64,000 nucleotides of DNA. Origin: Gemmobacter fulvus (GTDB lineage: Bacteria > Pseudomonadota > Alphaproteobacteria > Rhodobacterales > Rhodobacteraceae). Below the pieces are notes generated by a model. The model worked only from the letters and a program-made list of their open reading frames with translations. It was not told where the DNA came from and searched no databases. The position numbers and the translations under genes were made by a program. The number at the start of each line of letters is the position of its first letter. The stretch's first letter is position 1. Positions 1,456-35,481 of the stretch are shown here, one piece after another. The stretch is from assembly GCF_018798885.1 (NCBI RefSeq), contig NZ_CP076361.1:2199501-2263500 (forward strand), written 5' to 3'.

Positions 1456-2058
1456 TCAGGGTTTGAGCGTGCAGCAACCCGTCAGCGCGGCAGGCTCCGC
1501 CGCCCCGTTCAGGCCGGGGCGCAGCGTGCCGGTCATGGAGATTCCGAAGGCGCGGTCGCTCATGCCATCGCTGCAGGCCTGTGCCACCATGGCGATCTCG
1601 CCGCCCTGCGCGTCCGTGCCAAAGCTGGCCTTGCCGTCGCCATGCGCGCCCAAGGCCATGCGCACCTCGTCCATGCCGGGCTGTTCCAGCCGCACATCCG
1701 CCGCGCCCGGGCTGAGGGTCAGCGACCAGAACGGTTCGGTGCCAAAGCAGCGCATGGTGCGCGCAATCTGCGCCCAATCCTCGCCGGGCTGGCGGCTGAG
1801 GTATTTCAGATAGACCCAGCCTGTCGCCTCTCCGGCGTTGATCTGGCCCCAGGTGCCGGATTTGGACAGGGCCACCAACTCCACCGCCTTTTCATCGCGC
1901 GCCAAAGTGCCGATCACCGGGGCTTTGGAACTGGCTTCGGCGCGGATGTTCAGGCTGTCGCCCGCCGAGACGCCGCTGACATCGAACAGGGCAGGCAGGG
2001 TGTCAGCCGTGGCAGGCGCGGCGGCAATGCCGAGGATCAACAGGGCGGCACGGATCAT
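1456..2058 (-). CDS. Secreted SH3-domain protein with a DUF-like C-terminal domain
   Basis: A 200-residue exported protein of unknown function. Residues 1-18 form a signal peptide ending AATADT-like at the ATADTLPA segment. Residues about 22-92 form a bacterial SH3 domain (DSLNIRAEASSKAPVIGTL, then GWVYLKYLS), a fold usually linked to cell-wall or peptide binding in the periplasm. The C-terminal half contains RCFGTEPFWSL, typical of small exported proteins that follow SH3 domains in Rhodobacterales, and ends with a CC pair. The ATG overlaps the stop of the upstream permease gene by four bases (ATGA), so the two are probably translated together. Whether this reflects a shared envelope role is inference. 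Confidence 0.8.
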   Translation of the reverse strand: MIRAALLILGIAAAPATADTLPALFDVSGVSAGDSLNIRAEASSKAPVIGTLARDEKAVELVALSKSGTWGQINAGEATGWVYLKYLSRQPGEDWAQIARTMRCFGTEPFWSLTLSPGAADVRLEQPGMDEVRMALGAHGDGKASFGTDAQGGEIAMVAQACSDGMSDRAFGISMTGTLRPGLNGAAEPAALTGCCTLKP

Positions 2059-2876
2059 CGCTTGGCACTCCAGCTGGCAGAAATATGTTTGCGTGTGTAG
2101 AATTCACCCATCAACCCGATCAGCACGCAGACCGCCGTCACCTTCAGCGGATAACTGATCGAGCTGTAATGCGGATGATAATTCAGGAAGATATAACCGC
2201 GGCCCTGATCAATGGTGTGGAACAGCGGGTTCCAGTCAAACCAGGTCAGGATATAGCCGGGCATCATATTGGCCACGAACATCTTGCCCGAGGCAATCAT
2301 GTTGGCGCGCATGTAGACCTGGCTGACGATGCCGATGAAATCCGGCGCCCAAGGTTTTGCCGCCAGCACGATCATGCCGATGCCCACACCCGACGCCCAG
2401 GACAAGAGCAGCATCCCCAGTGCGCCGACCGGCTGATAGATCGTGATCGGCTCGATCGCGGCGTGATAGACATAAAGCACGACCGTGGCCGACAGGATCT
2501 GCTGATAGAGCGCGGCGAGCGCTGCCGCCGAAATGGAAATCACCGTATTCATCGGCGCGTGCAGCATCATCGGCGATGTCGGCCCGTCCGAGCCGACCAC
2601 CGCGCCCATGGCCTTGGTGTGTGTCATGAACATGAACACACCCGACATGACATAAAGCACGAAATTGCCGCGAATGGCGCTGCCGCGCGCGCCCATGATA
2701 TTCAGCATGAAATAGAACACGCAGATCAGCAGCACGGTCTGCACGATGCTCAGCAACAGGCCGATCAGCGCATTGCCATGGCTTTTGCGGATATTGCGCA
2801 CGGTTGCGTGGTAGATCAGCTCCATCTGGCCGAACATCGTCCGGGCCGGGGTGCGGGATCTGTCAGCCTCGAACAT
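2055..2876 (-). CDS. ABC-2 type polysaccharide export permease (KpsM/RkpT-like)
   Basis: A 273-residue inner-membrane permease of the ABC-2 capsule/O-antigen exporter type, with about six hydrophobic helices. It starts with a cytoplasmic FGQMELIYHATVRNIRKSH segment, the N-terminal layout of KpsM-like proteins, and ends in the typical helix plus short basic tail (YTRKHISAS). I place the start at the ATG at 2876, preceded by AGAGAGG, rather than further upstream, because the longer frame would add a low-complexity leader inside the divergent promoter region. No partner ATPase (KpsT) or periplasmic export protein is visible in the window, so it must pair with one encoded elsewhere. It diverges from the cysQ-kdsB glycan operon and overlaps the SH3-domain gene by four bases. 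Confidence 0.85.
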   Translation of the reverse strand: MFEADRSRTPARTMFGQMELIYHATVRNIRKSHGNALIGLLLSIVQTVLLICVFYFMLNIMGARGSAIRGNFVLYVMSGVFMFMTHTKAMGAVVGSDGPTSPMMLHAPMNTVISISAAALAALYQQILSATVVLYVYHAAIEPITIYQPVGALGMLLLSWASGVGIGMIVLAAKPWAPDFIGIVSQVYMRANMIASGKMFVANMMPGYILTWFDWNPLFHTIDQGRGYIFLNYHPHYSSISYPLKVTAVCVLIGLMGEFYTRKHISASWSAKR

Positions 2877-3009: not shown

Positions 3010-3804
3010 ATGGATTTTTCGCTTCTCGTGCCGACCATCCGCCGCCTTGCACTGGAGGCGGGGGACCGGATCATGGAGGTCTACAACGCGCCGGATTTCG
3101 AGGTGAAATCCAAAAGCGATGCCAGCCCAGTGACCGAAGCGGATGAGGCGGCGGATGTGCTGATCTCGGCCGGATTGCGCGCGGCCTTCCCCGATGTGAC
3201 GCTGATCACCGAAGAACAGGCCGCCAGCCACGCCCTGCGCGCCGAGACTTTCCTGATCGTCGATCCGCTGGATGGCACCAAGGAATTCGTGCAGCGGCGC
3301 GGCGATTTCACCGTGAACATCGCCTATGTCGAGGCGGGCGTGCCCGTGCGTGGGGTGGTCTATGCCCCGGCGCAGGGGCGGCTGTTCTACACGCAGGCCG
3401 ATGGCACGGCGGTTGAGGAAACCGGCGCGCTGGACAAGGACAAGCCCGGCAATCTGCGCCGCATCGGCGTCAGCACGCCGGACAATGCGGCACTGATGGT
3501 GGTGGCGTCGAAAAGCCATCGCGATGCGGCGACCGATGAATATATCGGCAAATACGCGGTGAAGGACATGCGCTCGGCCGGCAGCAGCCTGAAGTTCTGT
3601 CTGGTGGCCACGGGCGAGGCGGATCTCTATCCGCGTCTCGGACGCACGATGGAATGGGACACGGCGGCCGGTGATGCGGTGCTGCGCGGGGCCGGTGGTC
3701 ATGTGGTGCGCTTTGACGACCATACCCCGCTCGCCTATGGCAAAGAGGGCTGGGACAACCCGTTCTTCATCGCCTATGCGCCCGGCGTGGATCTGAAGAA
3801 ATGA
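3010..3804 (+). CDS. cysQ: 3'(2'),5'-bisphosphate nucleotidase (PAP phosphatase) CysQ
   Basis: A 264-residue member of the inositol-monophosphatase-like superfamily. It converts 3'-phosphoadenosine 5'-phosphate (PAP), the by-product of PAPS-dependent sulfation and sulfate reduction, to AMP. Metal-binding motifs are in order: EE at 68-69, DPLDGT at 85-90 and WDTAAGD at 216-222. The sequence after DPLDGT, KEFVQRRGDFTVNIA, is the CysQ signature that separates it from SuhB-type inositol phosphatases. The ATG at 3010 gives the usual family length. The last four bases overlap kdsB (ATGA), so the two are coupled. Its place at the head of a glycan operon that ends with a sulfotransferase suggests it removes PAP made during glycan sulfation; that link is inference. 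Confidence 0.93.
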   Translation: MDFSLLVPTIRRLALEAGDRIMEVYNAPDFEVKSKSDASPVTEADEAADVLISAGLRAAFPDVTLITEEQAASHALRAETFLIVDPLDGTKEFVQRRGDFTVNIAYVEAGVPVRGVVYAPAQGRLFYTQADGTAVEETGALDKDKPGNLRRIGVSTPDNAALMVVASKSHRDAATDEYIGKYAVKDMRSAGSSLKFCLVATGEADLYPRLGRTMEWDTAAGDAVLRGAGGHVVRFDDHTPLAYGKEGWDNPFFIAYAPGVDLKK

Positions 3805-4598
3805 GTGTGCTGATTGCCATTCCGGCGCGTTATGCCTCGACCCGCTATCCCGGCAAGCCTTTGGTGTCATTGAAGGGCCCGGATGGCGACAAGACCCTGA
3901 TCCGCCGCAGCTGGGAGGCGGCGGTCGCCGTCAAAGGCGTGGACCGGGTGGTGGTGGCCACCGACGACACGCGCATCAAGGATCACGCCGAGGCCTTTGG
4001 TGCCGAGGTGGTGATGACCTCGCCCCAGTGCCAGAACGGCACCGAACGCTGCGCCGAAGTGGCGGCGCATCTGCCGGGCCATGACATCGTGGTGAACCTG
4101 CAAGGCGATGCGCCGCTGACCCCGGCCTGGTTCATCGAGGATCTGGTGGCGGGGCTGTGGGCACAGCCCGAGGCCGAGATTGCAACGCCGGTGCTGCGCT
4201 GCGACGGGCGGGCACTGAACGGCCTGCTGGCGGACCGGCGCGCGGGGCGCGTGGGCGGCACGACGGCGGTGTTTGGCACCGGGGGGCGGGGGCTCTATTT
4301 CTCCAAAGAGGTGATCCCCTATACCGGGAAACCTTATGCCGACACGGACGAAACCCCGGTGTTCCATCACGTCGGCGTCTATGCCTATCGCCCGGCAGCA
4401 CTGGCGGCCTATCCCGGCTGGGCTGTCGGCCCGCTGGAGACGCTGGAAGGGCTGGAGCAGCTGCGCTTTCTGGAGAACGGGCGGCAGGTGCTCTGCGTCG
4501 AGGTGCAGGCGCGCGGACGGCAATTCTGGGAGCTGAACAACCCCGAGGATGCGCCGCGCATCGAGGCGATGATGGCCGAGATGGCCGCACAGGGATGA
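3801..4598 (+). CDS. kdsB: 3-deoxy-manno-octulosonate cytidylyltransferase (CMP-Kdo synthase)
   Basis: A 265-residue cytosolic enzyme that activates Kdo with CTP to CMP-Kdo, the donor for LPS inner core and for Kdo-linked capsules. It starts with IPARYASTRYPGKPL, the KdsB/KpsU nucleotide-binding signature, and carries NGTERCAE, VNLQGDAPL and HHVGVYAYR. The C-terminus reads LENGRQVLCVE followed by LNNPEDAPRIE, where classical LPS KdsB proteins usually have a GVDTPEDL-like ending, so it may be closer to a capsule-type (KpsU-like) or lineage-specific form. It overlaps cysQ upstream and the GT2 gene downstream by four bases each. kdsD, which makes the Kdo precursor arabinose-5-phosphate, lies at 15.5 kb. 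Confidence 0.92.
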   Translation: MSVLIAIPARYASTRYPGKPLVSLKGPDGDKTLIRRSWEAAVAVKGVDRVVVATDDTRIKDHAEAFGAEVVMTSPQCQNGTERCAEVAAHLPGHDIVVNLQGDAPLTPAWFIEDLVAGLWAQPEAEIATPVLRCDGRALNGLLADRRAGRVGGTTAVFGTGGRGLYFSKEVIPYTGKPYADTDETPVFHHVGVYAYRPAALAAYPGWAVGPLETLEGLEQLRFLENGRQVLCVEVQARGRQFWELNNPEDAPRIEAMMAEMAAQG

Positions 4599-5851
4599 CG
4601 GATCTGCCCACGGTCAGCGTGATCGTGGTCAGTTGGCAGCGCCCGATGGCCCTGCGCCGCTGCCTGCTGGCGCTGGGTCAGCAGGACCATCCGCAACTGG
4701 AGCTGATCGTTGTGGCCGATGCCGCGGCGCAGGAGCAGACCCGGCAGGATCTGGCGGCAGCGCGGCGGCTGGCGAAGCTGGCGGTCAATGCCGCCCCCAA
4801 TATTTCGGTGGCGCGCAACATCGGGCTGGCGCTGGCGGCGGGCACGGTTGTTGCCTTCATCGATGATGACGCGGTGCCGGAACCCAGTTGGGCCAGCCGC
4901 CTTTGCGCGCCCTTCGCGGCGGCAGAGGTGGTGGCGGCCACCGGATATACGCGCGGTCGCAACGGGCTGAGCTTTCAATGGACCGCTGCCGAGGTGGATC
5001 AGACCGGGCAGGACCATCCGCTGCCGCTGTCTGCCGGGGTCAGCCTGCATCGTGGCACGGCGCTGCGGGCGGTCAAGCCGGTGGGCACCAATTGCGCCTT
5101 TCGCGGTGCTGTGCTGCGGGCCATTGGCGGGTTTGATCCGGCCTATCGGTTCTATCTGGAGGATGCCGATATTGCGCTGCGGCTGGCCGGGCATGGGCTG
5201 ACCGCCGTGGTGCCCGCCGCGCAGGTGCATCATGGCTTCGCCGCCAGCGCGCGGCGGCGTGCCGACCGGGTGCCGCTGTCCCTGCACGAGATCGGGGCCT
5301 CTTCGATGGTGTTCCTGCGCCGCCATGCGGCACCGGGGCTTTGGCCCGATGCGCTGGCGCGGCTGCGGGCCGAACAGCGGGCACGGGTGCTGCGGCATAT
5401 GGTCGATGGCCGGATCGAGCCGGGCGGCGTGGCGCCGCTGCTGGCCACGCTGGAGGCCGGGCTGTCGGACGGCGCGGGTCGGGTGTTGGACCCTTTGGTC
5501 GCCCTTGATACCGCCCCGCCCGCTTTTCTGGCCTTGCCCGGCACGGGGCCGCGCCCGGGGCGGGTGATTGCGGGCCGGATCTGGCAGCGTGCGCGCCTTA
5601 TCAAAGCCGCGCAGGCGGCGGTGCAGGCCGGGCATCTGACCACGGTCTTTCGCTTCAGCCCGACGATCCTGCGCCATCGACACGGCTTTCATACCGATGG
5701 ATATTGGGAGCAATGGGGCGGCCTGTTCGGCGCGGCAGACCGGGCCGAGCCGGTCTTTCGCCTCTGGTCATTCCCGGCACGTCTCCGCCGGGAAGCAGCG
5801 CGATGGGCGGAGCTACGCCCAATCCCGGCCCCGCCCGATCAGAAAACTTGA
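4595..5851 (+). CDS. Family 2 glycosyltransferase (GT-A fold)
   Basis: A 418-residue cytosolic glycosyltransferase. The N-terminal GT-A domain (about residues 5-240) begins VSVIVVSWQRP and has NISVARNIGLA followed by the metal/nucleotide-binding AFIDDDAVP (DDD at 90-92). NCAFRGAVLRAIGGFDPAYRFYLEDADIALRL is read as the acceptor/catalytic-base ED segment of GT2 enzymes. The C-terminal 180 residues resemble no domain I can name. The start overlaps the kdsB stop by four bases, so this gene is the third of a tightly coupled cysQ-kdsB-GT2 operon. The sugar transferred cannot be deduced from sequence. Confidence 0.85.
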   Translation: MTDLPTVSVIVVSWQRPMALRRCLLALGQQDHPQLELIVVADAAAQEQTRQDLAAARRLAKLAVNAAPNISVARNIGLALAAGTVVAFIDDDAVPEPSWASRLCAPFAAAEVVAATGYTRGRNGLSFQWTAAEVDQTGQDHPLPLSAGVSLHRGTALRAVKPVGTNCAFRGAVLRAIGGFDPAYRFYLEDADIALRLAGHGLTAVVPAAQVHHGFAASARRRADRVPLSLHEIGASSMVFLRRHAAPGLWPDALARLRAEQRARVLRHMVDGRIEPGGVAPLLATLEAGLSDGAGRVLDPLVALDTAPPAFLALPGTGPRPGRVIAGRIWQRARLIKAAQAAVQAGHLTTVFRFSPTILRHRHGFHTDGYWEQWGGLFGAADRAEPVFRLWSFPARLRREAARWAELRPIPAPPDQKT

Positions 5852-6024
5852 GCGGTCTGGGCTGCTGCGCTAAATGCAGGCAGGAATTTGTCCAATCTGC
5901 CCCAATTTAATCCGTTTGATTCGTTTTTTTCGCTGAATGACGGACGATATTGGAGTAGGGTTGTTGGCAAATGCCCGTAATCGGCAGTCGATCGCGCATT
6001 GCAATGAGAGAATCGAGCGAGACC

Positions 6025-6924
6025 ATGAAGACGAAAAAGGTGACCAAGGCGGTTTTCCCCGTAGCTGGCATGGGGACGCGGTTCCTTCCCGCCACGAAAT
6101 CCATCCCGAAAGAAATCATGACGCTGGTGGACCGCCCGTTGATCCAATACGCGATCGACGAAGCGCGTGCGGCTGGCATCAAGGAATTCATCTTTGTCAC
6201 CTCGCGCGGCAAGTCTGCGCTGGAAGATTACTTTGACCATGCGCCCGAGCTGGAAAGCTCGCTCAAGCGTTCGGGCAAGACCGAGCTGCTGGAAATCCTG
6301 AAAGACACCAATATGGATTCCGGGGCCATCGCCTATGTGCGCCAGAACCGCCCGATGGGTCTTGGCCATGCCGTGTGGTGCGCCCGCCGTCTGATCGGCA
6401 ACGAGCCCTTCGCCGTGCTGCTGCCCGATGACGTGATTGCGGCAGAAAAGCCCTGTCTGGCGCAGATGGTGGAAGCCTACGAACAGACCGGCGGCAATAT
6501 GGTTGCGGCCATGGAAGTGCCGCCGTCGAAAGCCTCGGCTTACGGCGTGCTGGATATTGCCGAAGACATGGGCTCCATCGTGCGCGCCAAGGGCATGGTC
6601 GAAAAGCCGAAGGCCGAAGACGCGCCGTCGAACTTGGCTGTGATCGGGCGCTACATCCTGTCGCCGAAGGTTCTGGTGAACCTGAACCGCATGAAGCAGG
6701 GCGCTGGTGGTGAAATCCAGCTGACTGATGCCATTGCCGAAGAGATTGGCGAAGAAGGCACCGGCGTTTACGGCTATCGCTTCCGTGGCCAGCGCTACGA
6801 CTGCGGTTCCAAGGCAGGTTTCCTGCAGGCCACGGTGGCCTTTGGCATGGCGCGCCCGGATCTGTGCGAAGAGTTCAGCCAATACCTGCACGATACCATC
6901 GCGCAGCAAAAGGCCGCGCAATAA
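6025..6924 (+). CDS. galU: UTP--glucose-1-phosphate uridylyltransferase GalU
   Basis: A 299-residue cytosolic enzyme forming UDP-glucose, a precursor for exopolysaccharide and LPS sugars. The protein starts KKVTKAVFPVAGMGTRFLP, the nucleotidyltransferase signature, and carries the family blocks KSIPKEIM, QNRPMGLGHAVWCAR, LPDDVI and GMVEKP. I place the start at the ATG at 6025, giving the normal GalU length. ATGs at 6004 and 5971 would add 7 to 18 residues that do not look conserved. About 170 bases separate it from the GT2 gene, so it may have its own promoter, though I see no convincing -35/-10 pair there. The next gene starts three bases after its stop. Confidence 0.95.
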   Translation: MKTKKVTKAVFPVAGMGTRFLPATKSIPKEIMTLVDRPLIQYAIDEARAAGIKEFIFVTSRGKSALEDYFDHAPELESSLKRSGKTELLEILKDTNMDSGAIAYVRQNRPMGLGHAVWCARRLIGNEPFAVLLPDDVIAAEKPCLAQMVEAYEQTGGNMVAAMEVPPSKASAYGVLDIAEDMGSIVRAKGMVEKPKAEDAPSNLAVIGRYILSPKVLVNLNRMKQGAGGEIQLTDAIAEEIGEEGTGVYGYRFRGQRYDCGSKAGFLQATVAFGMARPDLCEEFSQYLHDTIAQQKAAQ

Positions 6925-6927
6925 GCT

Positions 6928-8163
6928 GTGCCTGCGCCACGGCTGCTGGATCTGACGCGACTGGTGTCGCGGCTGGGGCGGGGGCCACTGACGGGCGTTG
7001 ATCGGGTCGAATTGGCCTATCTGGATCGTTTCATCGAGGGGGATGCCCAGGAGGGCGTTCCCCTTTATGCATTGGTGCGCACGGCGCTGGGCTTTGTTCT
7101 GCTGGATGCGCGCGGGGCCATGGCAATCGCGGCGCGGGCGCGCGGCACGGTGGCCTTGGGCCGCGCGGATTGGCTGGGGCGGCTGAGCCGCCGCAAGGAT
7201 CCGGCGCGGGCGCGGGCCGAGGCGGATCTGCGCCGTCTGGCATTGGCCCGGAGTTCCGGCCTTGGTCTGGCGCGGATGCTGATGCGGCACCTGCCGCCGG
7301 GGCCGGTGTATGTCAACGTCGGCCATGCCAATCTGGCGGCACCTGTGATGCAGGCGGTGCGTCGAGCCGGGGGGCGCATCGTGGTGCTGGTGCATGATGT
7401 GATCCCGCTCGATCACCCGGAGTTCACCCGCCCCGATATTCCCGCCGTGTTTTCTCGCAAGCTGGCCGTGACGGCCCATCATGCCGATCTGGTCATCCAC
7501 ACGGCTGAGGCCACACGCCAGCAGACCGAGGCGCATATGGCCCGGCTTGGCCGCGTGCCTCTCGGATGTGTGGCCGCGCTGGGGGTGCCGGTGGCCAGCC
7601 CCTGCCAGCCCGATCTGCCGGGGCTGGATCTGGCCCGCCCGTGGTTTGTGACCATCGGCACCATCGAGCCACGCAAGAATCATGCGCTGTTGCTGGATGT
7701 CTGGCAGGCGCTGTCACAACGGCTGCCTGCCGCGCAGATGCCGCAACTGGTGATCGCGGGCAGCCGGGGCTGGCGGAACGAGGCGGTGTTCCGGCGTCTG
7801 GATGCACGTCCGGCGGGCGTGATCGAGGCGGCAGGGCTGGATGATGCGGCCCTTTCCGGCCTGCTCATGGGCAGTGCGGGCCTGCTGTTTCCCAGTTTTG
7901 CCGAAGGCTTTGGCCTGCCCCCGCTGGAGGCGGCGGCGCTGGGCGTTCCGGTTTTTGCCCATGGCCTGCCGGTGATCCGTGAACTGCTGGGTGACTATCC
8001 CGTTTACCTTGATGCAACAGACAGTTATTCTTGGATGGAAACAATAGAGAGGGTCGTGGCCGCGCAGGGCAAAGGGGAATATATGTTACCTGTCCGTGGC
8101 TTGGCGCGGCAGGCACCAGAATGGGCCGCGCATTTCAACACGGTCTTAAGTATCGTCTGTTAG
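6928..8163 (+). CDS. GT4-type (GT-B fold) glycosyltransferase
   Basis: A 411-residue glycosyltransferase of the group-1 superfamily. The N-terminal half has the alternating Rossmann pattern with VLVHDVIPLDHPEF and the conserved VIHTAEATR. The C-terminal nucleotide-sugar domain has VTIGTIEPRKNHALLL, the usual TIEPRKN motif of mannosyl/rhamnosyl transferases, then LLFPSFAEGFGLPPLEAAALGVPV with the EGFGLP glutamate and P-LEA block. The start is the GTG at 6928, three bases after galU, which gives MPAPRLLDLTRL. Its 3' end overlaps the next gene. Probably a step in assembly of a surface glycan; the sugar is unknown. Confidence 0.85.
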   Translation: MPAPRLLDLTRLVSRLGRGPLTGVDRVELAYLDRFIEGDAQEGVPLYALVRTALGFVLLDARGAMAIAARARGTVALGRADWLGRLSRRKDPARARAEADLRRLALARSSGLGLARMLMRHLPPGPVYVNVGHANLAAPVMQAVRRAGGRIVVLVHDVIPLDHPEFTRPDIPAVFSRKLAVTAHHADLVIHTAEATRQQTEAHMARLGRVPLGCVAALGVPVASPCQPDLPGLDLARPWFVTIGTIEPRKNHALLLDVWQALSQRLPAAQMPQLVIAGSRGWRNEAVFRRLDARPAGVIEAAGLDDAALSGLLMGSAGLLFPSFAEGFGLPPLEAAALGVPVFAHGLPVIRELLGDYPVYLDATDSYSWMETIERVVAAQGKGEYMLPVRGLARQAPEWAAHFNTVLSIVC

Positions 8164-9209
8164 GCCAGACTGGATGGTCGGGTCGGAGTGAAGCGAGTTT
8201 GGGGATTTTATCGACATATCGGTTGCGACTGGCGCGCAAACGCTGGCGCATCAGGGCCTTCCGCAAGCGGCGGGAATTGCAACCTGTTGTGAGCCGTGTT
8301 GGTGATATCCGCCCCGATGGGCTGCTGCTGTTCTGCACCCTGCGCAACGAGAGGGTGCGCCTGCCGTTTTTCCTGCGCTACTACCGGGATCTGGGCATCA
8401 ACCATTTCCTCTTTGTGGACAATGACAGCGATGACGGCACGCGCGAATATCTGGCGCAGCAGCCGGATGTGTCGCTCTGGACCACGAAACACAGCTACAA
8501 ACGGGCGCGCTTCGGGGTGGATTGGCTGAACTGGCTGCAAATCCGCTATGGCCATGGCCATTGGACGCTGGTGGTCGACCCGGATGAGTTCTTTGTCTAT
8601 CCGTTTTGCGATACGCGGCCGCTGCGCGCGCTGACGGATTGGCTGGATGCCAGCTCGATCAAGTCGTTTTCGGCCATGCTGCTGGATATGTATCCCAAAG
8701 GCCCGATCTCGGCGCAGCCCTACCGCGAAGGGCAGGATCCGTTCGAGATAGCCAACTGGTTCGACAGTGGCAATTATGTGATTTCCAAGAACCGCGCCTA
8801 TGGCAATCTGTGGATCCAGGGCGGGCCGCGCGCGCGCATGTTCTTCGCCGATGTGCCCGAACGCGCACCGGCGATGAACAAGATCCCGCTGGTGAAATGG
8901 CACCGCGATTACGCCTATGTCAGCTCGACCCATATGCTGCTGCCGCGCGGGCTGAACCTCGTCTATGACGAATGGGGCGGCGAAAAGGCCAGTGGCTGTC
9001 TGCTCCATGCCAAATTCCTTGATACATTCGCAGCCAAGGCGAATGAGGAAATGGACCGCAAGCAACACTATGCCAACAGCCACGAATACCGCGCCTACAA
9101 GGAGGGTCTGAATGACAGCCCCGACCTGTGGTGCAAGTGGAGCGAGAAATACATCAACTGGCGACAGCTTGAGATTCTCGGGCTGATGTCGAAGGGCAAC
9201 TGGGCATGA
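8121..9209 (+). CDS. Glycosyltransferase family 2 protein (Glyco_tranf_2_4 type)
   Basis: A 362-residue protein. The core LLFCTLRNERVRLPFFLRYYRDLGINHFLFVDNDSDDGT is the signature of the GT2-like family with a DNDSxDGT donor-binding loop; it is followed by LVVDPDEFFVYPF, a DxDEF metal site. The start is the ATG at 8121, which overlaps the GT4 gene by 43 bases. Upstream in-frame codons add a leader with no family character, and a short basic stretch (RLARKRWRIRAFRKRR) follows the start in related proteins. There is no signal peptide or membrane segment. It sits in the same run as galU and the GT14 gene and is probably part of the same pathway. Exact substrate unknown. Confidence 0.82.
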   Translation: MGRAFQHGLKYRLLGQTGWSGRSEASLGILSTYRLRLARKRWRIRAFRKRRELQPVVSRVGDIRPDGLLLFCTLRNERVRLPFFLRYYRDLGINHFLFVDNDSDDGTREYLAQQPDVSLWTTKHSYKRARFGVDWLNWLQIRYGHGHWTLVVDPDEFFVYPFCDTRPLRALTDWLDASSIKSFSAMLLDMYPKGPISAQPYREGQDPFEIANWFDSGNYVISKNRAYGNLWIQGGPRARMFFADVPERAPAMNKIPLVKWHRDYAYVSSTHMLLPRGLNLVYDEWGGEKASGCLLHAKFLDTFAAKANEEMDRKQHYANSHEYRAYKEGLNDSPDLWCKWSEKYINWRQLEILGLMSKGNWA

Positions 9210-9219
9210 GGGGGCAGGG

Positions 9220-10917
9220 GTGAGCGTCGGCTTTGTCATGCTCTGCCATACGGCACTGGACCGGGCGGCGCAGGTGGCGCGGCACTGGGCAGAGCGGGGC
9301 TGCCCGGTGGTGATCCATGTCGACCGGCGGGTGAAAAAGGGCGCCTATCGCCGGATGGTGCGTGATCTGGCCGGGGTGGCGGATATCAAGTTCTCCCAAC
9401 GCCATGCCTGTGAATGGGGCACCTGGGGGCTGGTATCGGCCACGCAGGCGGCGGCGCTGCTGATGCTCAAGCAGTTTCCAGGGGTGCGGCATGTCTACCT
9501 CGCCTCGGGTTCTTGCCTGCCGCTGCGCCCGGTCGAAGAGCTGGTGGCCTATCTGAACGAACGCCCGCGCACGGATTTTATCGAAAGCGTGACCACCGAA
9601 GATGTCGGCTGGACCATCGGCGGGCTGAACATCGAACGTTTCACGCTGCGCTTTCCGTTTTCGTGGCGCAAGCAGCGCAGGCTGTTCGATGCCTATGTGA
9701 AACTGCAACGCACCCTGCGTTTCAAACGCCGGATTCCGCCGGGCCTTGTGCCGCATCTGGGCAGCCAATGGTGGTGCCTGACCCGGCAAACCCTGTCGGC
9801 CATCCTCGAAGACCCGGAACGCGACAGTTATGACCGCTATTTCCAGCGCGTCTGGATCCCGGACGAGAGTTATTTCCAGACGCTGGTGCGTCAGGTTTCG
9901 GCCAATGTGGAAAGCCGCTCGCTCACGCTGTCGAAGTTCGATTTTCAGGGCAAGCCGCATATCTTCTACGATGACCACCTGCAACTGCTGCGTCGTTCGG
10001 ATTGTTTTGTGGCGCGCAAGATCTGGCCGCAGGCCGAAAAGCTGTATCGCACCTTTCTGGCCGATGATGCCGGGGGCGCGGTTGCGGCAGAGCCGAACCC
10101 CGGCAAAATCGACCGGCTGTTCGCCAAGGCGGTGGAGCGGCGCACCAAGGGGCGGGCCGGGCTTTATATGCAAAGCCGCTTCCCCAACCAGAATTGGGAA
10201 AACGGCATGACCGCCGCCCCCTATTCGGTGTTCGAGGGCTTTGCCGAACTGTTCGATAATTTCGACATCTGGCTGGGCAAGGTGGCCGGAACGCGGGTGC
10301 ATGGCCATCTGTTCGCCCCCGACCGGGTTGCCTTTGCCGGGGGCGAGACGGTCTATAATGGCGCGCTGGGGGACAGTGCGATGCTGCGCGATTACAATCC
10401 GCGCAGTTTTCTGGTCAATCTGGTGTGGAACACACGGGGCGAGCGGCAGTGTTTTCAGTTCGGCCCGAATGATTCCCAGAAGGTCGCGCCCTTCCTTGCC
10501 CGCGATCCGAATGCGCAGATTTCGGTGATCTCGGGCGCATGGGCGGTGCCGCTGTTCCACTCCAACAGCAATTTCAGCGACATCCGCAAAGAGGCCGCCC
10601 GGCTGCAAAAGATCGAGGCGGAACATCTGACGGTGCTGCGGGCGCTGAACGTGAAGGCGCGGGTGCGGATCTGGACGCTGGCGGAATTTGTCGAAAACCC
10701 GATGGAGCCGTTGCAGACCATCATTGATGAAATCAGCCCGCGCTCGTCACGCCGCCTGACCGAAGCGCCGCGCATCGCGGATCTGACCGGCTTTGGCCAG
10801 TTCTTGCAAAATCTGCGCAATCAGGGAATGCAGCCTGTGCTGATGGGCGATTTTCCGGCCGGAGATGATCCGAAGCCCACGACCTCGCGGCGCGGCCGCC
10901 CCTATCTGGTGAAGTGA
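9220..10917 (+). CDS. GT14-like beta-1,6-N-acetylglucosaminyltransferase with C-terminal DUF5928-type region
   Basis: A 565-residue protein. Residues 1-270 resemble the Branch/core-2 GT14 family: VGFVMLCHTALDRAAQVARHW, then VVIHVDRRVKK, CEWGTWGLVSATQAA, YLASGSCLPLRP and WIPDESYFQTL. From about residue 300 the protein continues with a separate conserved-looking domain (NWENGMTAAPYSVFEGF, VHGHLFAPDRVAFAGG, WNTRGERQCFQFGP). I associate this with the DUF5928 region seen in Rhodobacterales relatives; the assignment is from memory. The start is the GTG at 9220 with GGGGCAGGG just upstream. The stop is one base before the start of the sulfotransferase gene. The name follows the family; activity on bacterial acceptors is not shown by sequence. 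Confidence 0.8.
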   Translation: MSVGFVMLCHTALDRAAQVARHWAERGCPVVIHVDRRVKKGAYRRMVRDLAGVADIKFSQRHACEWGTWGLVSATQAAALLMLKQFPGVRHVYLASGSCLPLRPVEELVAYLNERPRTDFIESVTTEDVGWTIGGLNIERFTLRFPFSWRKQRRLFDAYVKLQRTLRFKRRIPPGLVPHLGSQWWCLTRQTLSAILEDPERDSYDRYFQRVWIPDESYFQTLVRQVSANVESRSLTLSKFDFQGKPHIFYDDHLQLLRRSDCFVARKIWPQAEKLYRTFLADDAGGAVAAEPNPGKIDRLFAKAVERRTKGRAGLYMQSRFPNQNWENGMTAAPYSVFEGFAELFDNFDIWLGKVAGTRVHGHLFAPDRVAFAGGETVYNGALGDSAMLRDYNPRSFLVNLVWNTRGERQCFQFGPNDSQKVAPFLARDPNAQISVISGAWAVPLFHSNSNFSDIRKEAARLQKIEAEHLTVLRALNVKARVRIWTLAEFVENPMEPLQTIIDEISPRSSRRLTEAPRIADLTGFGQFLQNLRNQGMQPVLMGDFPAGDDPKPTTSRRGRPYLVK

Positions 10918-10918
10918 T

Positions 10919-12325
10919 TTGGCAGAGCAACGGTTTACCTCTTTCGTCATGTTCGCGGAAATGCGGACGGGCTCCAACTTTCTGGAGGCAAGCCTGAATG
11001 CCCTTCCGGGGGTGATGTGCCATGGCGAGGTGTTCAACCCGCATTTCATCGGCAAGAAAGACAATCTGGCGCTGTTCGGGATCGACCTTGCGCAGCGCGA
11101 TGCCGATCCCATGGCGATGCTGGCGCGGATGCGCGCCGAAACCGATGGGCTGGCCGGGTTTCGCTGTTTCCACGATCACGATGCGCGGGTGATTGCGGCG
11201 GTGCTGGCCGATCCGGCCTGCGCCAAGATCATCCTGACGCGCAATCCGGTGGAAAGCTATGTCAGCCTCAAGATCGCGCAGGACACCGGACAATGGCGGC
11301 TGACCAATGCGGCCAAGCTCAAATCCGCCAAGGTGCATTTCACCCCGGCAGAGTTCGAAGCCCATCTGCGCGCGCTGCAAGAGTTTCAGATCACGCTGCT
11401 GCACGCGCTGCAAACCGGCGGGCAGACCGCCTTCTATATTGATTACGAAGACCTGAACGATACCGAGGTTCTGAACGGTCTGGCGGCCTTTCTGGGGGTG
11501 TCGGGGCGTCTTGAGGCCCCAGATGCCAAGCTGAAGAAACAGAATCCTGACGAGGTTGTCGACAAGGTTCTGAATCCGGCCGAGATGGAGGCTTCGCTGG
11601 CGCGGCTGGATCGGTTCAACCTTGCCCGCACCCCGAACTTCGAACCGCGCCGCAGCCCGGCGATTCCGTCATTTGTGGCGGCGGCAGATGCTGGCCTGCT
11701 GTACATGCCGGTGAAGGGCGGGCCAGAGGCGGCAGTGCGGCAATGGCTGGGCCAGATCGGCAAGGGCGGGCTGATCACTGATTTCGTGCAGAAATCGCTG
11801 CGGCAGTGGAAGCGCGGGGCGGTGCCGCATCGCAGCTTTACCGTGCTGCGCCATCCCTTGGCCCGCGCCCATGCCGGGTTTTGCAGCCATGTTCTGGGGG
11901 ATCAGGGCGCAGACCTGCACCGGCTGCTGAGCAAGACCTACAAGATCGCGCTGCCCAAACCGGGCACCACTGTCACGCCCGAGGAACATCACGCCGCGTT
12001 CCTGGCCTTCCTGCGCTGGCTCAAGCTCTATCTGTCAGGCCAGACCGGGCAGAAGATTGATCCACATTTCGCCAGCCAGACGACGATTCTGCAGGGCTTT
12101 GCACAATTTCAGGGCCCGGATCTGGTGCTGCGCGAAGAGGGGCTGGCCGGGGCGCTGCCCTTCCTCGCCGCCGAAGTGGGCTGCGCTGCGCCTGCCTATG
12201 CCACCGAGGACGTCGCGGCGCCGCATCCGCTGGCGGCGATTTATGATGACGCCTTGGAAGACGCCGCGCGGGACGCCTATCAGCGCGACTATATGGGGTA
12301 TGGGTTCAGCCGCTGGCGCGGCTGA
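10919..12325 (+). CDS. Sulfotransferase-like protein with two sulfotransferase-type halves (NodH-like N-terminus)
   Basis: A 468-residue protein. The N-terminal half carries the two PAPS-binding elements of sulfotransferases: MRTGSNFLEASL at 15-26 (5'-phosphosulfate loop) and ILTRNPVESYVSLK at 105-118 (3'-phosphate loop). The second half starts LLYMPVKGGPEAAVRQWL at about 260 and has TVLRHPLARAHAGF at 308-321, the same pair of elements as in the Sulfotransfer_2 family, so two diverged units appear to be fused. The start is a TTG at 10919, which gives MAEQRFTSFVMFAEMRTG; the ATG at 10949 would cut into the first strand. It ends the plus-strand glycan run. Most likely it sulfates a surface glycan using PAPS. 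The acceptor is unknown. Confidence 0.78.
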   Translation: MAEQRFTSFVMFAEMRTGSNFLEASLNALPGVMCHGEVFNPHFIGKKDNLALFGIDLAQRDADPMAMLARMRAETDGLAGFRCFHDHDARVIAAVLADPACAKIILTRNPVESYVSLKIAQDTGQWRLTNAAKLKSAKVHFTPAEFEAHLRALQEFQITLLHALQTGGQTAFYIDYEDLNDTEVLNGLAAFLGVSGRLEAPDAKLKKQNPDEVVDKVLNPAEMEASLARLDRFNLARTPNFEPRRSPAIPSFVAAADAGLLYMPVKGGPEAAVRQWLGQIGKGGLITDFVQKSLRQWKRGAVPHRSFTVLRHPLARAHAGFCSHVLGDQGADLHRLLSKTYKIALPKPGTTVTPEEHHAAFLAFLRWLKLYLSGQTGQKIDPHFASQTTILQGFAQFQGPDLVLREEGLAGALPFLAAEVGCAAPAYATEDVAAPHPLAAIYDDALEDAARDAYQRDYMGYGFSRWRG

Positions 12326-34318: not shown

Positions 34319-35245
34319 ATGACAACGCTGGTCTATTCACACCCCGATTGTCTGGACCATCGCGAACCGCCGGGCCATCCCGAACAGGCCGCGCGGCTGT
34401 TGGCAGTTGAACGGGGGCTGGCCGGGCTGGATCTGGAGCGGCGGGAGGCCCCCTTGGCCGATGTGACGGATGTACTGCGCTGCCATCCGGCGCAATATGT
34501 GGCGCGGGTCGAACGCGCGGTGCCGCAGCAGGGCTGGGCGCAGCTGGATGGCGACACCTATATGGCCCCCGGATCCTGTCAGGCCGCCTTGCGCGCTGTG
34601 GGGGGCGTCTGCGCGGCAGTGGATGCGGTGATAGGCGCGCAGGCGCGCAATGCCTTTGTCGCCTGCCGCCCGCCGGGCCATCATGCCGAACGTGAAACGG
34701 CCATGGGCTTTTGCCTGTTCGGCAGCGTGGCGATCGGGGCGAAACGGGCGCTGGATCATCACGGGCTGGCTCGTGTGGCGGTGGTGGATTTCGATGTGCA
34801 TCACGGCAATGGCACGCAGGATCTGCTGTGGGACGAGCCGCGCTGCCTGTTCGCCTCCAGCCAGCAGATGCCGCTCTATCCGGGCAGCGGTTTCGCGGAT
34901 GAGCGCGGCGCACATGGGCAGATGGTGAATGTGCCGCTGCGTGGGGGCAGTGGCGGTGCCGAGATGCACGCCGCCTATCAGCGCGAGGTGTTTCCGCGCC
35001 TGACTGCCTTTCAGCCGGAGCTGATCCTGATTTCGGCGGGGTTTGATGCCCATGCCGACGATCCGCTGGCCGGGCTGATGTGGCGCACGGCAGATTTTGC
35101 CTGGCTGACGGAACAACTCTGTGATCTGGCCGATGCGCTGTGCGGCGGGCGGGTGGTATCCGCGCTGGAGGGCGGTTATGATCTGGATGCGCTGGCGGCA
35201 TCTGTCGCGGCGCATGTGGGTGTATTGCAGCGGAGGGGCCAATGA
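34319..35245 (+). CDS. Histone deacetylase-family (acetylpolyamine amidohydrolase-like) protein
   Basis: A 308-residue zinc hydrolase of the HDAC superfamily. Active-site elements are RPPGHHAERETAMGFCLF (catalytic histidines at 121-122), VVDFDVHHGNGTQ (zinc ligands D159 and H161) and ISAGFDAHADD (third ligand). In bacteria the substrate is usually an acetylated polyamine or small molecule; histones are not involved. The ATG at 34319 has AAGGGCAAGGA upstream. It overlaps xseB by four bases and leads an operon with xseB, ispA and dxs, an arrangement known from Rhodobacter. Confidence 0.88.
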   Translation: MTTLVYSHPDCLDHREPPGHPEQAARLLAVERGLAGLDLERREAPLADVTDVLRCHPAQYVARVERAVPQQGWAQLDGDTYMAPGSCQAALRAVGGVCAAVDAVIGAQARNAFVACRPPGHHAERETAMGFCLFGSVAIGAKRALDHHGLARVAVVDFDVHHGNGTQDLLWDEPRCLFASSQQMPLYPGSGFADERGAHGQMVNVPLRGGSGGAEMHAAYQREVFPRLTAFQPELILISAGFDAHADDPLAGLMWRTADFAWLTEQLCDLADALCGGRVVSALEGGYDLDALAASVAAHVGVLQRRGQ

Positions 35246-35481
35246 CCGGAAAACCGATTGCCGAGATGACATTTGAAGAGGCGATGGGCGCGCTGGAAGC
35301 CGTGGTGACCCAGCTGGAGCGCGGCGATGTGGCGCTGGAGCAGAGCATTGCCTTTTACGAACGCGGGGCGGCACTGAAAGCGCATTGCGCCGACAAGCTG
35401 AAAGCCGCCGAAGAAAAAGTGGAACTGATCCGCGCGCAGGAAGGCCGTGCCGTCGGCACCACCCCGGCGGAGGGGATGTGA
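35242..35481 (+). CDS. xseB: Exodeoxyribonuclease VII small subunit
   Basis: A 79-residue protein with the whole XseB coiled-coil helix hairpin: MTFEEAMGALEAVVTQLERGDVALEQSIAFYERGAALKAHCADKLKAAEEKVELI. It joins XseA to form exonuclease VII, which degrades single-stranded DNA. It overlaps the deacetylase-like gene and ispA by four bases each, a layout common near ispA in proteobacteria. Confidence 0.95.
   Translation: MTGKPIAEMTFEEAMGALEAVVTQLERGDVALEQSIAFYERGAALKAHCADKLKAAEEKVELIRAQEGRAVGTTPAEGM

Follow-up and report, generated by a model that had tools for sequence, protein, structure and literature searches.

We analysed a 64,000-nucleotide stretch of the Gemmobacter fulvus genome (contig C1, positions 2199501-2263500; hereafter the window), which carries a plus-strand run of eight genes in the order cysQ-kdsB-GT2-galU-GT4-GT2-GT14-sulfotransferase (GT, glycosyltransferase), with a gene for a KpsM-like capsule-export permease lying divergently upstream. 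The reading that we favour, and consider probable rather than secure, is that this run makes a surface polysaccharide that is primed with 3-deoxy-D-manno-octulosonic acid (Kdo), exported by an ATP-binding cassette (ABC) transporter through the Kps route, and probably sulfated. Part of the evidence is a survey of 80 genomes, in which KpsM and the GT14/sulfotransferase genes are either both found or both lacking. An earlier note, made from the window's sequence alone, had described the run with the place, strand and order that we find, and had proposed an operon for a sulfated glycan with a capsule-type permease just upstream. Our data strengthen the connection to capsule export beyond what sequence alone could reveal and weaken the one to cysQ; overall, we regard that interpretation as partly supported.

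Results

Joint presence and loss of KpsM and the glycosyltransferase module

Of 292 genomes sampled from the order Rhodobacterales, 279 gave a match to the sulfotransferase protein, representing 106 of 112 genera; one of the 279, G198, matched weakly (E 3.3e-12), and its locus carries no sulfotransferase gene. We examined the 13 genomes without a match, together with G198, for the GT14 protein with its C-terminal DUF5927 domain. This protein is full length in G059, G198, G221 and G239, is matched only at its N terminus in G174, is reduced to a fragment in G075, and was not found in the remaining eight. Ten sampled genomes therefore lack both a full-length GT14 and the sulfotransferase, and these ten are among the 13 without a sulfotransferase match. 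We combined the 14 genomes with 66 of 72 carriers whose loci had been fetched, giving the set of 80. KpsM was detected in all 70 GT14-positive genomes, with E 1.5e-69 or better, and a clear KpsM orthologue was found in none of the ten GT14-negative genomes, of which eight gave no match and two gave weak ones (4.9e-9 and 2.3e-6). The KpsC/KpsS family PF05159 gave best E values of 1e-44 to 2e-57 in 70 of 70 GT14-positive genomes; among the ten GT14-negative genomes it was absent from four, weak in three (3.6e-5, 1.7e-6 and 1.9e-12), and strong in three (1e-66 to 1e-68), apparently from another system. From this joint pattern we conclude that kpsM and the glycosyltransferase/sulfotransferase genes behave like a single unit, in support of a tie to a capsule-type exporter.

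The loci of the ten genomes, located by kdsB, lack kpsM, GT2, GT14 and sulfotransferase, the exceptions being fragments in G075 and a GT4-like gene in G110 and G227. In G075 (locus L226), relics of GT14 and GT2 lie at 7470-7637 and 8466-8687, between rnd and galU, and we read them as recent decay of the module. galU mostly remains where the module is missing, and lptBAC is kept in the four module-less loci whose fetched sequence covered that flank completely or almost completely. KdsB was found in 79 of the 80 genomes, including all ten without the module. The remaining genome, G285, has both the module and Kps genes, yet KdsB was not matched there at a threshold of E 1e-10; Kdo may have been lost, the enzyme may have diverged, or the assembly may have a gap. 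The earlier note had treated kdsB and galU as dedicated suppliers, which does not fit their general persistence.

The note had also taken the pairing of cysQ with the sulfotransferase as a telling feature. In G059, G198, G221 and G239, the GT14 and ptsN matches lie 42-98 bases apart, too little for a sulfotransferase gene, and cysQ is nevertheless kept at four of four of these loci. It is likewise adjacent to kdsB at eight of the ten module-less loci; it was not seen in place in G085 and does not occur within the stretch fetched for G060. Because loci that have lost the sulfotransferase can still retain cysQ, the pairing is weak evidence, and we rejected cysQ as proof of sulfation. The persistence of cysQ and kdsB where the module is missing indicates that both have wider duties.

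On a tree built from housekeeping neighbours, the module changes state at least seven times. There are six supported independent contrasts in which KpsM moves the same way (sign test, p 0.031), with KpsM coded as equal to GT14 and, in five rows, assigned by that coding alone. A Fisher test, which takes no account of kinship among the genomes, was disregarded.

Conservation of the locus across the family

We took 72 carrier loci, about one per genus and best matches first, so that divergent carriers are under-represented, and scored synteny by tblastn with the window proteins. The PF13704-type GT2, GT14 and sulfotransferase genes occur together in all 72. Among the same loci, cysQ was found in 68, galU in 68 (67 under a stricter filter), kpsM in 66, ptsN in 65 and kdsB in 51, some misses being stretches ended by a contig edge or by fetch limits. 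The gene order that the earlier note proposed for comparison across Rhodobacterales thus recurs across the family, and for that reason lies far beyond chance. The glycosyltransferases that precede the core are variable: in 72 cysQ-bearing loci, four of which have no sulfotransferase gene, we observed a GT2 and GT4 pair in 35, a second PF13704-type GT2 instead in 36, and neither in one. About 1 kb of extra sequence follows galU in 46 of 71 loci, and five of seven such stretches examined read by eye as a UDP-sugar 4-epimerase. Hence, the conserved core consists of the PF13704-type GT2, GT14-DUF5927 and the sulfotransferase. At locus L094 (G117) the GT14 match is limited to the last part of the protein (a 173-aa frame, with 750 bases unmatched before it) beside an intact sulfotransferase gene, which suggests a broken or mis-assembled copy.

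In 62 loci scored for kdsB and kdsD within the block, both were present in 44, both absent in 14 and one only in 4. Where it is absent from the block, kdsB sits elsewhere at about 58-68% identity. Absence from the block was therefore rejected as a marker of Kdo loss; since kdsB is found elsewhere in nearly all genomes, these genes have been moved or replaced. We also compared evolutionary distances over 60 loci. Module and housekeeping genes correlate with r 0.31-0.39, and housekeeping genes with one another with r 0.20-0.26, within the permutation range; because the latter correlate no better among themselves, this inheritance test says little. The corresponding correlations are 0.68 for GT14 with the sulfotransferase and 0.54 for GT14 with KpsM.

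The earlier note had remarked that sulfated capsules are described in few Rhodobacterales. Given the 279 matches in 292 genomes, we rejected the reading of the locus as a rare island; it appears instead to be a trait of the family. In a sample of the class, seven of 289 genomes matched the sulfotransferase, four of them from the same family and full length, and three others in the first half only; no full-length match was found in the 285 sampled class genomes outside the family. Close relatives named among the 80 retained of 596 include Gemmobacter, Rhodobacter and Pseudorhodobacter. Two records of metagenome-assembled genomes (L166 and L168), titled Cytophagaceae and Exiguobacterium profundum, bear the Rhodobacteraceae protein and are probably mislabelled. 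Among open-licence PMC literature, we found no paper on the locus, on DUF5927 or on 'LPS sulfotransferase NodH' (LPS, lipopolysaccharide).

The two-domain sulfotransferase

The last gene of the run (10919-12325, plus strand) had been called a sulfotransferase of the type that uses 3'-phosphoadenosine 5'-phosphosulfate (PAPS). The protein reaches no family cut-off alone, its best score being to Sulfotransfer_3 (E 1.3e-3), and it has two domains; the assignment stands on its relatives, fold and motifs, and not on its own profile score. A Stf0-like half spans about residues 5-232, and a degenerate Sulfotransfer_2-like half about residues 250-468. An AlphaFold2 model made with 70 sequences has a mean predicted local distance difference test score (pLDDT) of 91.4 and a predicted template modelling score (pTM) of 0.60, so the domain folds are good and their mutual arrangement is uncertain. 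The best fold match of the first half is Stf0 (1tex_D; Z 12.9, root-mean-square deviation (rmsd) 3.7, 191 residues aligned), and further sulfotransferases score no more than about 2.5 Z away; that search hardly covered the second half. The closest solved sequence, 9vki_A, is named 'LPS sulfotransferase NodH' (E 5.2e-11, residues 7-153). In 70 of 70 sequences the first half retains R16-T17-G18-S19-N20, G36-E37, R108-N109-P110 and S116, which we take to be the 5'-phosphosulfate-binding (5'-PSB) and 3'-phosphate-binding (3'-PB) motifs and the catalytic acid of PAPS sulfotransferases, Glu37 being the presumed catalytic residue.

At a threshold of E 0.1, 58 of 70 members match Sulfotransfer_2, the strongest with 1.3e-11; the window protein itself gives 0.12, and three of five members scored singly pass the family cut-off. 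Mean pairwise identity among the 70 sequences is 0.49 in the second half and 0.62 in the first. Profile comparison found no link between the halves, so their tandem arrangement should not be read as a duplication. The protein would have one working site, in the first half, with the second serving in binding or structure. Among the sampled genomes, this fusion was seen only in this family.

The GT14-DUF5927 protein

The preceding gene (9220-10917, plus strand) encodes GT14 with a C-terminal DUF5927 (PF02485, E 4.3e-15; PF19349, E 1.5e-159), and both domains are found in 72 of 72 members. In a predicted model (pLDDT 80.3, pTM 0.56), residues 1-289 have the GT-A fold of the GT14 (core-2/I-branching) family, matching the core-2 N-acetylglucosaminyltransferase 2gak_A (Z 24.2, rmsd 3.4, 270 aligned) and, at a Z of about 21, human xylosyltransferase 1. 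In the modelled DUF5927, the succession of helices and strands prompted the idea of a possible hidden sulfotransferase domain. Comparison of DUF5927 with sulfotransferase profiles gave no link (probability 0.2 or less), and no solved structure matched it by sequence; the fold search covered residues 1-290 of the protein only.

Organization of the locus

The KpsM/VexB-like permease (260 aa, about 2055-2837, minus strand) scores below the curated cut-offs against NF011723 (E 2.9e-8) and against NF050053 (E 3.2e-7), in agreement with the capsule-type permease noted earlier. The genes of the run are all on the plus strand. Three match curated models over cut-off: cysQ, encoding 3'(2'),5'-bisphosphate nucleotidase (3010-3804; TIGR01331, E 1.3e-77); kdsB, encoding CMP-Kdo synthetase (3801-4598; NF003950, E 9.7e-105); and galU, encoding UTP--glucose-1-phosphate uridylyltransferase (6025-6924; TIGR01099, E 8e-100). 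The variable part of the module comprises the first GT2 (4595-5851; PF13641, E 3.8e-17, scored on a longer reading frame) and GT4 (6928-8163; PF00534, E 6.8e-13). The conserved PF13704-type GT2 follows at about 8199-9209 (E 2.8e-35); its start codon is uncertain, and 8199 was taken from the commonest length among relatives. Neighbouring genes overlap by 4 bases or are separated by 1-35 bases, apart from a wider gap of 173 bases that separates the first GT2 from galU. Scans of the locus revealed no excess of terminators over shuffled sequence (8 versus 7.4), and for promoters the figures were 3 versus 1.5. The genes downstream, on the opposite strand, were read by eye or by synteny as ptsN, a gene for a ribosome hibernation factor, lptB, lptA, lptC, kdsD and rnd.

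Candidate partners elsewhere in the genome

The earlier note had suggested looking for a KpsT partner elsewhere in the genome, and a VexC-like (KpsT-like) ATPase lies at C1:283 kb (E 8.5e-31, below the equivalog cut-off). It stands in a row at C1:283-286 kb with kdsA and a KpsE-like protein of the BexC/CtrB/KpsE family (TIGR01010, E 1.1e-58, below cut-off). This candidate was caught by the VexC profile; a DNA pattern for the KpsT signature missed it and found only a gene on contig C6. Beside recA, near the same row, a 212-aa open reading frame (L205:3492-4130) looks sulfotransferase-like by eye, with a PKTGTT motif, and matches no Pfam or NCBIfam model. A second row, at C1:3.120-3.125 Mb, contains KpsS-type, polysaccharide-export (KpsD-like) and KpsC-type genes. 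The KpsD-type outer-membrane export protein is over the PF02563 cut-off, and the adjacent KpsC- and KpsS-type proteins are both over that of PF05159; the KpsS match to NF050054 (E 3e-63) is below cut-off.

PAPS would be supplied by a fused ATP sulfurylase/APS kinase (APS, adenosine 5'-phosphosulfate) at C1:1.11 Mb, which is over the NF004040 cut-off. CysH bears CC and CxxC pairs, a mark of APS reductases; the model that it fits best carries the name phosphoadenylyl-sulfate reductase, and the APS model is below cut-off. Contig C6 (141 kb) contains a second sulfotransferase (34791-35366; PF00685, E 3.9e-5) and, likewise among apparent rml sugar genes and an epimerase, a further KpsT-like ATPase (L204). 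These genes look like another surface-polysaccharide cluster.

Discussion

We propose that KpsS and KpsC, encoded elsewhere, would place Kdo on a lipid; that the local GT2, GT4 and GT14 enzymes would add further sugars to it, supplied by UDP-glucose and compounds made from it; that the Stf0-like half of the sulfotransferase would add sulfate from PAPS; and that KpsM, with KpsT, KpsE and KpsD encoded elsewhere, would export the polymer. We infer the polymer, the Kdo linker, the sulfate and the order of steps, as well as the pairing of KpsM with KpsT and the wiring of dispersed Kps genes into one exporter. A sulfated product seems likely given the PAPS motifs of the first half.

Several observations weigh against this proposal. 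The KpsM, KpsT, KpsE, KpsD and KpsS matches all fall below NCBIfam equivalog cut-offs. In four genomes GT14 and KpsM are kept while the locus holds no sulfotransferase gene, which means that the glycan can do without that enzyme. In the second half of the sulfotransferase, the putative PAPS loop has no conserved Lys (position 266 is R in 45, K in 12 and another residue in 13 of 70 sequences), and in the second motif position 318, usually Ser, is His in 67 of 70. Synteny covers 72 of the 279 carriers and is weighted to closer relatives. Finally, the position of kdsB beside lptABC-kdsD would also fit LPS.

That last point leads to the strongest alternative, in which the genes build or decorate an LPS core or O-antigen-like chain and the sulfotransferase sulfates LPS, for which rhizobial LPS sulfotransferases offer a parallel. 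The presence of kdsB within the run, the ptsN-hpf-lptB-lptA-lptC-kdsD genes downstream of the module in most fetched loci, and the name of the nearest solved sequence, 9vki_A, are all consistent with it. However, the glycosyltransferase and sulfotransferase genes vanish with kpsM, whereas kdsB stays, as does lptBAC in the four loci where it was visible; we therefore consider a role in LPS unlikely, though worth keeping in mind. A sulfotransferase acting on a small acceptor, such as a glycolipid or protein-bound sugar, and linked to the exported polymer only by shared timing or position, is less likely again. The best structural match is a trehalose sulfotransferase, and the gene has been lost alone in four genomes, but it directly follows GT14 in the fetched carrier loci, and most genomes without a sulfotransferase match (10 of 13) lack full-length GT14 too. 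We consider it very improbable that the protein has ceased to transfer sulfate and survives as a relic with a structural or regulatory role. A degenerate second half and a window protein under every Pfam cut-off speak for this reading; against it, all 70 sequences preserve the first-half motifs intact, the presumed catalytic Glu37 among them.

If the run does direct a Kdo-primed, exported polymer, it can be set beside known systems. The capsule of Cobetia marina KMM 1449 is chemically proven to be sulfated, and its cluster resembles the genes described here in having Kps export genes (kpsETMD), kpsSC, cysQ, PAPS genes, glycosyltransferases and a sulfotransferase (PMC11766843). In Cobetia these form one large locus, whereas here the parts lie at at least three chromosomal places, with PAPS synthesis elsewhere and a local core conserved in the family. 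As a whole, the parts are consistent with a Kdo-primed, ABC-dependent polysaccharide pathway of the kind described for capsule secretion (PMC11041684) and for the sulfated capsules of Cobetia and Vibrio (PMC11766843, PMC11641403). As in group 2/3 ABC-dependent capsules, there are relatives of KpsM, KpsT, KpsE, KpsD, KpsC and KpsS together with CMP-Kdo supply (PMC11041684); unlike in those capsules, there is no kps region with a variable centre, and the glycosyltransferase core is near-constant over about a hundred genera. Capsules have been described as fast-evolving (PMC7305143). The Rhodobacter capsulatus capsule (rcc01081-01086) is likewise a surface polysaccharide of this bacterial family, but is encoded by a separate, strain-variable cluster with a Wza/Wzb/Wzc export set (PMC10218006). 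The sulfotransferase shares its first-half fold and PAPS-type motifs with Stf0 (1tex) and 9vki, and differs from both in its fusion to a Sulfotransfer_2-like half.

Capsule loci are usually strain-variable. A bolder extension, which we regard as a speculative long shot, is that a single ancestral glycan, anchored through Kdo and sulfated, coats almost all members of the family and has been conserved rather than varying by strain, with the degenerate sulfotransferase half reading the acceptor or setting the sulfation pattern, and GT14-DUF5927 beside it as an enzyme with a second activity. Being so constant, such a glycan could be a common surface receptor, for example for gene-transfer-agent tail fibres, which have been proposed to bind an oligosaccharide (PMC10218006).

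The kpsM and GT2-GT14-sulfotransferase genes offer a clear genetic unit with natural loss lineages, and our analysis names two architectures without a described function, GT14-DUF5927 and the Stf0-like/Sulfotransfer_2-like fusion. If our proposal is correct, a sulfated glycan would be shared through the family, including the abundant marine roseobacters, with consequences for attachment, for phage and gene-transfer-agent binding, and for marine organic sulfur.

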